A stretch of 64,000 nt of DNA, from assembly GCA_903829945.1 (NCBI GenBank), contig CAIKRV010000001.1:1-64000 (forward strand), read 5' to 3'. Below, piece by piece: positions 19,098-22,176 of this stretch. Every line of letters starts with the position of its first letter. The stretch's first letter is position 1. The notes beneath the pieces are model-generated. The model was not told the DNA's origin and did not search any database. It saw only the letters and a program-made list of their open reading frames with translations. Made by a program: the position numbers and the translations under genes. The DNA is from an uncultured bacterium. GTDB taxonomy: Bacteria > Bacteroidota > Bacteroidia > CAILMK01.

Positions 19098-20015
19098 ATG
19101 ACAACTCTTAAAAAGCTTAAAAAAGTAAGGGCCTATCGGTCCAATCTTACTACTTTTAATGGTGAACAAGACAATTCAAATCTTTTCTATGAAAGACAAT
19201 TAACTCCGGATAATAGACCTATTCATATTACCTACTATGACAAAAATGGTGAGGAAAGACTTGTAGAAAGCTTTAAGTATGATGAAAAAGGAAATTTAAT
19301 TGAAGAAATTAATAATCATATAGACGAAGAAAGACTTGAAATGAATACCTGGAAATATGATGGTGCCGGGAACCTCATCGAGGAATGTGAATATTATGAA
19401 GATGAGTTATTTGAAAAAACTATTCATAATTATAATTCACTTAATCAAAAAATTAGCACTTCACATTTGGATTCAGATGATAACGTATTGGATAACAATA
19501 CTTTTGAATATAATGATCATGGAAAACTCTTGAAACATAATCATTTTGATGAACAAGGCACATTGGATTGGTCCTTGGATTTGGAATATGATGCTCAGGG
19601 AAATGCTATTAAAGAAACCAAACATAATTATTTAGAAAAGACTTCTGAAATAACTATTCATAATTTTGATTTACAGGGCAATAGGTTGGATTCAACCAGT
19701 CAAACCGATCAAGGTGAGGTATTAAGTATTTTGGAAGAGGAATATGATGATGCAGGTAACCATGTGGAAACGGTGGCTAAATCTAAGTATCCATATGTTA
19801 GTCATACTATTAGAACTACTGAATATGATGAACAAGGTCGGGCCACAGCCAATCAATTATTTGATGAAATGAATAATTACCTTTTATCGAGGGAAATAAT
19901 TGAATATGATGAAGATGGCCATCCTTCTTCACAGGAAATTTATGAATTAAGAACAGGACAAGGAATGATAAAAACCCATTTTATGCTTACCTTTGATAAT
20001 GAATATTGGGATTAA
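19098..20015 (+). CDS. Cytoplasmic YD-repeat-like protein
   Basis: 305 residues, very acidic, with no signal peptide. From about residue 45 it is built of nine tandem units of about 26 residues, each beginning with a YD..GN-type motif (YDEKGN, YDGAGN, YNDHGK, YDAQGN, FDLQGN, YDDAGN, YDEQGR, YDEDGH) followed by strand-forming residues. This is the pattern of RHS/YD repeats, which make beta-sheet shells in toxins and wall proteins. Here there is no toxin domain, RHS core or secretion signal, so it may be a solitary binding or scaffold protein. It lies 75 bp upstream of an ECF sigma operon on the same strand; a functional link is possible but unproven. Confidence 0.65.
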   Translation: MTTLKKLKKVRAYRSNLTTFNGEQDNSNLFYERQLTPDNRPIHITYYDKNGEERLVESFKYDEKGNLIEEINNHIDEERLEMNTWKYDGAGNLIEECEYYEDELFEKTIHNYNSLNQKISTSHLDSDDNVLDNNTFEYNDHGKLLKHNHFDEQGTLDWSLDLEYDAQGNAIKETKHNYLEKTSEITIHNFDLQGNRLDSTSQTDQGEVLSILEEEYDDAGNHVETVAKSKYPYVSHTIRTTEYDEQGRATANQLFDEMNNYLLSREIIEYDEDGHPSSQEIYELRTGQGMIKTHFMLTFDNEYWD

Positions 20016-20028
20016 TCCTAAATAAACT

Positions 20029-20052
20029 AACTTAAATACCCGTTCGTTCGTC
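20029..20052 (+). promoter_or_regulatory. Candidate ECF-type promoter (AAC-17-CGTC) before the first sigma operon
   Basis: AAC at 20029-20031 and CGTC at 20049-20052, separated by 17 bases, the general layout of ECF-dependent promoters; no TAnnTTTG element is seen before this gene. It suggests autoregulation. The match is short and could be chance. Confidence 0.3.
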
Positions 20053-20090: not shown

Positions 20091-20648
20091 TTGAAATTCG
20101 CTGACGATAAAGATCTTCTTTTGGGCTGTCTTCAAAATGACGGAAGAGCACAAAAGGTCTTGTTTGAAAAATATTATTCAGACATGTTAGCAGTTTGTGT
20201 GCGTTATACCAAGGATACGGATGAAGCGAAAGATGTCCTTCAAGATGCTTTTATTAAGGTATTTAGTAGAATTAATACTTATACGAGGCAAGGAACATTA
20301 AAGTCATGGATTCATAGTATTATGATTCATACAGCTTTAGATCATTATCGTGCGATGAAACGCGATTTAAAATTGTTGGAAGTTGAAGGTGAAAAGGATG
20401 ATTTTATTGAAGCAGAGGTTGAAGGTACAATTGCCTATGAAGAAATTCTTCAAATCATTCAAAAATTGCCTGATACTCAAAGAACGGTGTTTAACTTATA
20501 TGTAATGGAAGGCTACTCTCACAAAGAAATAGCCGAGGAATTGGGTACTACTGAAGGCGGTTCGAAATGGCATCTATTTGAAGCCAGAAAGAATCTTAAA
20601 ACTTTGTTAGAACAGCATTATCCTATAAAATTGAAAGAATATGCCTAA
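20091..20648 (+). CDS. ECF RNA polymerase sigma factor (first pair)
   Basis: 185 residues from a TTG start. Region 2 (LFEKYYSDMLAVCVRYTKDTDEAKDVLQDAFIKVF, split by the usual DEAxDxxQDxF motif) and region 4 (LPDTQRTVFNLYVMEGYSHKEIAEELGTTEGGSKWHLFEARKNLK, a helix-turn-helix) are both complete, with a short linker, so it is a standard two-domain ECF sigma. It overlaps the next gene by 8 bp, so the two are translationally coupled. The partner is a membrane protein with an anti-sigma-like N-terminus. A possible self-recognised promoter lies just upstream. Confidence 0.93.
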   Translation: MKFADDKDLLLGCLQNDGRAQKVLFEKYYSDMLAVCVRYTKDTDEAKDVLQDAFIKVFSRINTYTRQGTLKSWIHSIMIHTALDHYRAMKRDLKLLEVEGEKDDFIEAEVEGTIAYEEILQIIQKLPDTQRTVFNLYVMEGYSHKEIAEELGTTEGGSKWHLFEARKNLKTLLEQHYPIKLKEYA

Positions 20649-22176
20649 GGCAGATATAGATAAAATAATAAAAAGTGCTTTAAATCGCTATCCAACTAAT
20701 AATAGCGATTCGGAAAAAGTATGGGCAGGCATTAAACAAAATTTAGATGCTTATCAGAAACCTGTGTCCAGAATTTCAATTTATTCCTTAGTAGCCACTG
20801 CTATTATTTGTATTGGATTAGCCGGTTCTGCAGGTTATTATTTTGGTTTCAGAAATGCTGAAAATACTAAGCTAACTATAAATACAAATTCACTCAGTTC
20901 GTCAAATAAGCTAGTAATAGGACATGCAGCTAATCCTTCGATGACTTCTACTCAATCCCGACCTGAAACCTCCGAAAGTTTAAATACTAAAACGGAAAAT
21001 TGGAATGTTGCTCAAACAAATAGTGAAAACACAATAAATGTTAAGCAAAATGGGCAAAAAAAATCTACCAATTATGTTAAATCTGCCAGTACATATCAAA
21101 GCCCTACCATTGTAAGCAATAATTCTTATCGCGAAAATCAAGATAAAAACGTTGTTCAAATTTCTAATGTAAAGCCTAATTTAAATCTGGAAGCAATTAC
21201 ACTGAAGGATGAAATTGCACAAGGGAATAATCAATTTAATGAAGCGCCTACTGATTTTACAATTGATTTATTAGGGTCACCGCACCCGAGTTCTATGGAT
21301 CTTGAAAATGAAAGCGAAACAAAATCAAATTTTATATCAGCCGGTAAAGGATTATTTTATAACATTTGGGCAAATCCTGCATATACCGGAACTGAGGCAA
21401 AATATACCTTTAATTCACAGGCAAATTTTGTGAGTTTTCAAAAAAGTTATCGCCCGGGTACTGATTATTATGCATCCTTTGATACCCGATTGGATAAAAT
21501 AAATAGTGGCATAGGTGTTTATGCTGTTAGAAGTATTTCTCCTTCCTTAGCCACAAATACCTTAGGTGTTACTTATGCTTATAAAATAAAATTTAATGAT
21601 GGTGCAGTATTAAGTTTAGGAGGAGGGCTCAATGCTTCTACCTCTATACCTTATTATGCCGCACATTATGAGCCAAGGAAAATAGTTGCCAATAGTTTCT
21701 TATTTATTCCGAATGGTGAAGCTTTAACCTCTATTAAGACTCGTGTTAATGCAGCTGATTTAGGTTTTTGGTACGAGAACAATAATTTCCTAGGCGGTGT
21801 TTCCGTTAAAAATATTAATCAGCCTACTTATTCTGAAGGCGGCAATGTACCTGCACATTATATTTATACCTTAGGCTATAAAATGTCAGTAGGAAATACC
21901 TTAGAAATTTTACCACTTATGGAATTACACAAAATAAATGGTGTATTTCAACAGCAAGCAAGTATATTATTTGGTTTTAAAAAATATTTTATGGCCGGTA
22001 TAGGATATCAAAATGTTAGTCCGGCAACTCCATATGGTGATGTTAGTTTATATATGTCTGCCCAGATGTACGGACGATTAAGAATATTTGCCGGGTATGG
22101 ATATACCTCTGATAAAGCCGATGCATTTTATGCGCATAGAATATTGCAAACCGGCTTAAGATATCAATTCAGGTAA
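20641..22176 (+). CDS. Trans-envelope anti-sigma/PorP-SprF-type barrel fusion
   Basis: 511 residues in four parts. Residues 1-44 are a cytoplasmic helical segment (SDSEKVWAGIKQNLDAYQ), in the position of an anti-sigma domain. Residues about 45-68 form one membrane helix (SLVATAIICIGLAGSAGYYF). Residues about 70-230 are a polar Ser/Asn/Thr-rich linker long enough to cross the periplasm. Residues about 231-511 match the PorP/SprF outer-membrane family of type IX secretion: FYNIWANPAYTG near the domain start, then Gly- and aromatic-rich alternating strands ending in TGLRYQFR. It overlaps the sigma gene. I infer a single protein spanning both membranes that holds the sigma factor and senses the outer membrane or the T9SS. 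Similar dual-membrane anti-sigma factors (Dma) have been described in Bacteroides thetaiotaomicron. The architecture is visible; the function is inferred. Confidence 0.8.
   Translation: MPKADIDKIIKSALNRYPTNNSDSEKVWAGIKQNLDAYQKPVSRISIYSLVATAIICIGLAGSAGYYFGFRNAENTKLTINTNSLSSSNKLVIGHAANPSMTSTQSRPETSESLNTKTENWNVAQTNSENTINVKQNGQKKSTNYVKSASTYQSPTIVSNNSYRENQDKNVVQISNVKPNLNLEAITLKDEIAQGNNQFNEAPTDFTIDLLGSPHPSSMDLENESETKSNFISAGKGLFYNIWANPAYTGTEAKYTFNSQANFVSFQKSYRPGTDYYASFDTRLDKINSGIGVYAVRSISPSLATNTLGVTYAYKIKFNDGAVLSLGGGLNASTSIPYYAAHYEPRKIVANSFLFIPNGEALTSIKTRVNAADLGFWYENNNFLGGVSVKNINQPTYSEGGNVPAHYIYTLGYKMSVGNTLEILPLMELHKINGVFQQQASILFGFKKYFMAGIGYQNVSPATPYGDVSLYMSAQMYGRLRIFAGYGYTSDKADAFYAHRILQTGLRYQFR

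Follow-up and report, generated by a model that had tools for sequence, protein, structure and literature searches.

The window, by which we mean the whole 64,000-nucleotide stretch of DNA analyzed here, contains on its forward strand a two-gene unit in which a gene for an ECF sigma factor overlaps a gene for a putative anti-sigma factor that ends in a PorP/SprF-type barrel. The unit and its parts are as follows.

20026..20052, + strand: ACTAAC-N17-CGTC, an ECF-type promoter motif, with 38 bp between it and the start codon of the sigma gene
20091..20648, + strand: ECF sigma factor gene, 185 aa, TTG start
20641..22176, + strand: fusion partner gene (putative trans-envelope anti-sigma factor plus PorP/SprF-type barrel), 511 aa, ATG start
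20641..20772, + strand: putative sigma-binding domain, residues 1-44, with two short predicted helices and Trp28
20773..20850, + strand: single inner-membrane helix, residues 45-70, which stands in for a signal peptide
20851..21336, + strand: polar periplasmic tether, residues 71-232, rich in Asn, Ser and Thr, unconserved
21337..22173, + strand: PorP/SprF-type barrel, residues 233-511, without a C-terminal cysteine tail

The open reading frame listing places both genes where the first-pass annotation had put them and reproduces the 8-bp overlap between them that it described. The sigma factor matches both Sigma70_r2 (2e-14) and Sigma70_r4_2 (6e-16) in Pfam, indicating that regions 2 and 4 are present, and scores 94.4 bits against TIGR02937. 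Its orthologs at two related loci (L005 and L006) are 80% and 55% identical, respectively, and both keep the TTG start. Upstream, positions 19098-20015 hold a gene for a YD/RHS-repeat protein that is missing at the corresponding place in L005 and therefore probably lies outside the unit. Downstream, the 3' end of the fusion gene overlaps a convergent methyltransferase gene, judged by eye to be RsmD-like, by 21 bp (22156-22176), and the overlap has the same length in L005. An Rfam search around the unit gave zero matches.

The same annotation had read the 511-residue product as a cytoplasmic part, one membrane helix, a polar stretch and a barrel, in that order, and hydropathy, linker composition and the PF11751 match all agree with this. 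The protein has no cleavable N-terminal signal peptide; a cytoplasmic-type domain comes first, and the top hydrophobic stretch (mean Kyte-Doolittle value, 1.95) begins at residue 45. About 160 to 170 polar residues then lead to the barrel, residues 244-488 of which match PF11751 (PorP_SprF) at 1.2e-17 and 64.8 bits, above the Pfam cut-off of 22.3. When the barrel pair was aligned by hhalign with ten unfused PorPs, the probability was 98.8% over 254 columns. The assignment as a PorP/SprF-type barrel is thus upheld by PF11751 and hhalign, although the TIGR03519 score of 76.4 bits is below that model's cut-off of 90.55. The window barrel contains zero cysteines. A Pfam search with residues 1-44 matched no known domain, and PDB sequence searches with the fusion protein and with a PorP profile gave no match. 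AlphaFold2 models built from two sequences were too poor for use (pLDDT of 32 for the full protein and 42 for the barrel alone), because the alignment was too shallow; the low-confidence model has a helix at residues 48-62. A scan of viral contigs for PorP relatives that might deepen the alignment yielded one weak match only.

The whole unit is present in a second species of the window's genus (G001, represented by L005 and also by L075, an uncultured bacterium bin), where the fusion protein is 51% identical and the architecture, the 8-bp overlap and the NPAYTG segment are all kept. Another genus of the same family (G003) keeps the gene order, but its partner gene is interrupted by a frameshift, and no intact ortholog was found outside the window's genus. 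The frameshift lies around positions 1495-1531 of locus L006, close to where the barrel starts, and no NPAYTG segment can be recognised there. As the unit is whole in a second species and frameshifted in another genus, and as all three share the promoter motif, we conclude from these comparisons that the unit is conserved and no assembly artefact. Conservation is uneven along the protein. When the window is compared with L005, identity in the barrel is 67%, with a dN of 0.22 and a dS of about 1.8, which indicates constraint, whereas the tether is 31% identical with a dN of 0.82, which indicates its absence. Identity is 52% over the 44 N-terminal residues, the first 17 of which are almost the same in both proteins. 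Both ends of the protein are thus under selection and the linker is free, the pattern expected of a tether.

The promoter motif ACTAAC-N17-CGTC is common to the window, G001 (L005, 611-637) and G003 (C204:57951-57977), about 40 to 50 bp upstream of the sigma start in DNA that has otherwise diverged among the three. Its shape is that of an ECF promoter, which suggests that the sigma operon is autoregulated. The exact motif occurs twice in the window's whole genome, compared with nine times for the reversed control; it is absent upstream of the other related sigma genes, and its other exact matches in the window genome, G001 and G003 define no regulon common to them.

Relatives of the sigma factor were searched for in 395 genomes of the class, and the gene after each sigma gene was read at 62 loci, namely, 60 hand-chosen regions near the top of the ranked list, the window and L075. 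(Family and genus labels such as f1, f7 and f15 are arbitrary codes, not taxon names.) A Trp precedes the membrane helix region in 62/62 partners, a clear membrane helix is found in 61, and the partner starts at most 30 bp from the sigma stop in 59. The N-terminal domain of the fusion protein can accordingly be assigned to a short Trp-containing family encoded beside related sigma genes. What differs among the loci is the outer end of the partner, for which we use five groups of our own labeling; groups 1 to 3 were checked with family libraries, group 1 on examples.

Group 1, fused PorP: the window unit, L075 and an f15 set with several tandem Trp motifs
Group 2, PKD plus type-B sorting domain: 26 loci, with CHU_C in 26/26, one of them in the window genome (L121)
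Group 3, no outer domain but a canonical PorP gene directly after the partner: 12 loci; L135, whose partner is of barrel type and is followed by two PorPs, is counted here as well
Group 4, other barrels, e.g., OMP_b-brl_2: Dma-like layout
Group 5, others: four loci

Group 2 partners are often followed by a long PKD-rich gene. In group 3, 13/13 PorPs checked match TIGR03519. Parts of the type IX system (a fused PorP, an adjoining PorP or a type-B domain) form the outer end in 48 of the 63 tree rows. By these comparisons the PorP-fusion design is no one-off: fusion to PorP is seen repeatedly, and at sibling loci its place is taken by a type-B sorting tail or by a PorP gene alongside. Two loci deserve separate description. 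At L135 (104-3949, in G007), the sigma gene is followed by an anti-sigma gene with an OMP_b-brl_2-like barrel and then by two consecutive canonical PorP genes. L088 (4122-6047) encodes one of the f15 fusions, whose N-terminal part has about four tandem Trp motifs ahead of the membrane helix, as if sigma-binding units had been placed in series; in this locus, the f15 fusion that was checked, a gene for a small CHU_C-domain protein follows. Searched across the phylum, the f15 fusion profile matched the N-terminal and tether half only and gave no further PorP fusion. Long-frame PorPs at L148 to L161 were considered as anti-sigma fusions and rejected, being C-terminal extensions or longer called frames.

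Family f15 also contains a second ECF sigma lineage (group b), in which the partner, of 555 to 579 residues, begins with another type of N-terminal domain, has its membrane helix near residue 77 and ends in a PorP barrel; a canonical PorP gene comes after the fusion gene. In the barrel tree, the f1 and f15 group-a barrels are sisters (95/84) and group b lies elsewhere. The AU test rejects one common origin for the fused barrels (P = 0.0095), which implies at least two independent PorP fusions, the independent case being f15 group b. We had first supposed that f1 and f15 group a also arose by separate fusion events. The sigma tree keeps these two apart in all bootstraps (0/200 unite them), but a single sigma clade for them is not rejected (AU P = 0.107) and their barrels are sisters, so that this hypothesis is insecure. 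Beside the f1 and f15 group-a barrels in the tree stands an unfused PorP lineage of family f7, and this lineage has no cysteine tail either; the unfused PorPs nearest the window barrel are those at L157, L158 and L159, and each is followed by a gene for a small lipoprotein-like protein with a sorting-domain-like C terminus.

By its gene content, the window's genome encodes a type IX secretion system. SprA is present, a PorP-GldK-GldL-GldM-GldN cluster lies about 52 kb downstream of the unit on the same contig, and a second PorP gene adjoins a GldJ-like gene. There are 17 type-B sorting domains in the genome and three PorP-type proteins, of which the fusion protein is the sole one outside the Gld clusters. 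No type-B cargo gene adjoins the unit. Elsewhere in the genome, contig C59 encodes a 159-residue protein (L138, 1495-1971) in which a signal sequence and a full type-B sorting domain account for nearly the whole length; it might be a small ligand of the orphan barrel. Contig C66 carries the second sigma/anti-sigma pair (L121, 904-2217), in which a long PKD-rich gene comes after the gene for an anti-sigma protein with PKD and type-B sorting domains; a further type-B domain lies on the same contig (C66:48959-49222).

Taken together, these results, among them the translational coupling of the two genes, make it very probable that the fusion partner acts as an anti-sigma factor and nearly as probable that it reaches through both membranes. 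PorP-like proteins are both binders (PMC9143113) and specific shuttles (PMC12618676) of type-B cargo, so the simplest reading of the barrel is that it reports type-B loading or the state of the type IX system. We therefore lean, by a little, toward the view that the unit is a self-contained trans-envelope anti-sigma switch with the Dma layout, in which the barrel senses type-B cargo or the secretion state; for the barrel's specificity taken by itself, we regard the odds as even. In such a switch, residues 1-44 would keep the sigma factor bound at the inner membrane, and the tether would run through the periplasm to the barrel in the outer membrane, the place where type IX type-B cargo is ordinarily taken up by PorP/SprF proteins. 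The state of the barrel would shift when type-B cargo is loaded or missing or when type IX transport is altered. That change would travel along the tether, with or without proteolysis, and free the sigma factor, which would then transcribe the operon that encodes it and perhaps a small number of further genes.

The cysteine tail bears on how such a barrel might work. In Flavobacterium johnsoniae, a disulfide between the C-terminal tail of SprF and GldK ties SprF to the moving track, and the bond forms only after SprB has been exported and loaded on SprF (PMC12635249). Loading at the surface can thus alter the periplasmic side, a step that the sensing model needs. Cysteine within the last 40 residues is found in 0/12 fused barrels, compared with 20/23 unfused ones, which fits a fused barrel that no longer rides the moving track. 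Because it has no SprF-type cysteine tail to join it to GldK, the window barrel probably stays in place and reads cargo instead of carrying it. With a score under the TIGR03519 cut-off, it may also have lost cargo binding.

In the main rival reading, the barrel only anchors a Dma-like sensor in the outer membrane; the protein would respond to the integrity of the envelope, the spacing of its membranes or the assembly of barrels, and type-B cargo would have no role. The use of other barrels (OMP_b-brl_2) in the same layout at related sigma loci speaks for such an anchor, as do the missing cargo gene beside the unit and that same low score. Against these points stand the predominance of type IX parts among the outer ends, the recruitment of PorP on at least two independent occasions and the strong constraint on the barrel, and we consider an anchor without cargo function unlikely, if still a serious competitor. 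It is less probable again that the fusion protein is cleaved in the periplasm, leaving a barrel that works as a normal PorP carrier and an N-terminal anti-sigma part under regulation of its own. Cleavage would suit a linker that is long and unconserved, and anti-sigma and PorP genes are indeed separate neighbours in other families, but the fused barrels lack the C-terminal cysteine tail of carriers and one-piece fusions have been kept in at least two independent lineages. That the protein is an unusual signal-anchored PorP with no anti-sigma role, co-translated with the sigma gene by chance, seems very improbable: residues 1-44 resemble no known domain and the anti-sigma role is read from sequence, yet the Trp-containing N terminus stands beside the related sigma gene at every one of the 62 loci, whatever the outer domain, and its first 17 residues are nearly unchanged in G001 while the linker is not. 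An assembly or reading-frame artefact joining an anti-sigma gene to a PorP gene would be conceivable in a genome fragmented into 97 contigs but is scarcely credible given the one-piece frame with constrained ends in an independent genome and the analogous one-piece frames in f15.

A broader possibility is a family of Bacteroidota ECF switches that read type IX transport of type-B cargo, with either the carrier barrel (the window and f15) or the sorting domain of the cargo (the 26 CHU_C loci) built into the anti-sigma factor and often a gene for a PorP or a type-B adhesin alongside. In such a family, surface occupancy would set expression without a separate receptor, and the sorting-domain design would be a carrier-cargo pair wired in reverse. 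We advance this broader proposal tentatively, with a little less confidence than even the specificity of the window barrel. How gene expression in the Bacteroidota responds to type IX export is an open question beyond the PorXY-SigP route. The recurrence of the design suggests that bacteria may couple surface secretion directly to gene expression, and if the barrel reads cargo loading, one protein would link surface secretion to transcription. The idea would also explain inner-membrane proteins with type IX sorting domains, which are otherwise puzzling as secreted cargo, and the sibling loci, in which sorting-domain anti-sigma genes stand beside genes for PorP or adhesins, would open the question to tests in cultured relatives.

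Several known systems share parts of this arrangement. In TonB-dependent transducer signalling of the FecA/FecR type, an outer-membrane barrel controls an ECF sigma factor via an inner-membrane anti-sigma factor. There, however, two proteins serve as receptor and anti-sigma factor, and the barrel belongs to the TonB-dependent receptors, whereas here a single protein carries a PorP-type barrel. In Porphyromonas gingivalis, a sorting-domain protein and the type IX system are coupled with an ECF sigma factor by PorXY-SigP with PorA; as described, this route runs via a two-component system and SigP and has no one-piece trans-envelope anti-sigma factor (PMC7712824). The PorP/SprF carriers of type-B cargo share with the window protein the barrel family PF11751 and the NPAYTG-type start (PMC9143113, PMC12618676, PMC12635249). 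The window protein differs from them in having no signal peptide, a cytoplasmic N-terminal domain followed by a membrane helix, and no C-terminal cysteine tail. A PorP barrel in an anti-sigma role had been put forward as new by the first-pass annotation, and in the open-licence papers searched we found no PorP-fused or sorting-domain-tailed anti-sigma factor that would be a precedent. The closest counterparts, of a kind that this annotation had also named, are Dma1 and Dma2 of Bacteroides thetaiotaomicron, which have an anti-sigma N terminus, one membrane helix, a long disordered tether, a C-terminal barrel and an adjacent ECF sigma gene, the same layout as here, where the anti-sigma N terminus is putative (PMC13088901). 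The Dma criteria also include a sigma factor of ECF group 21 and control of vesicle formation or a sigma regulon, and the Dma report mentions neither the type IX system nor PorP. The likeness is drawn from the description of the layout, and what sets the window protein apart from Dma1 and Dma2 is its outer end, a PorP/SprF-type barrel.
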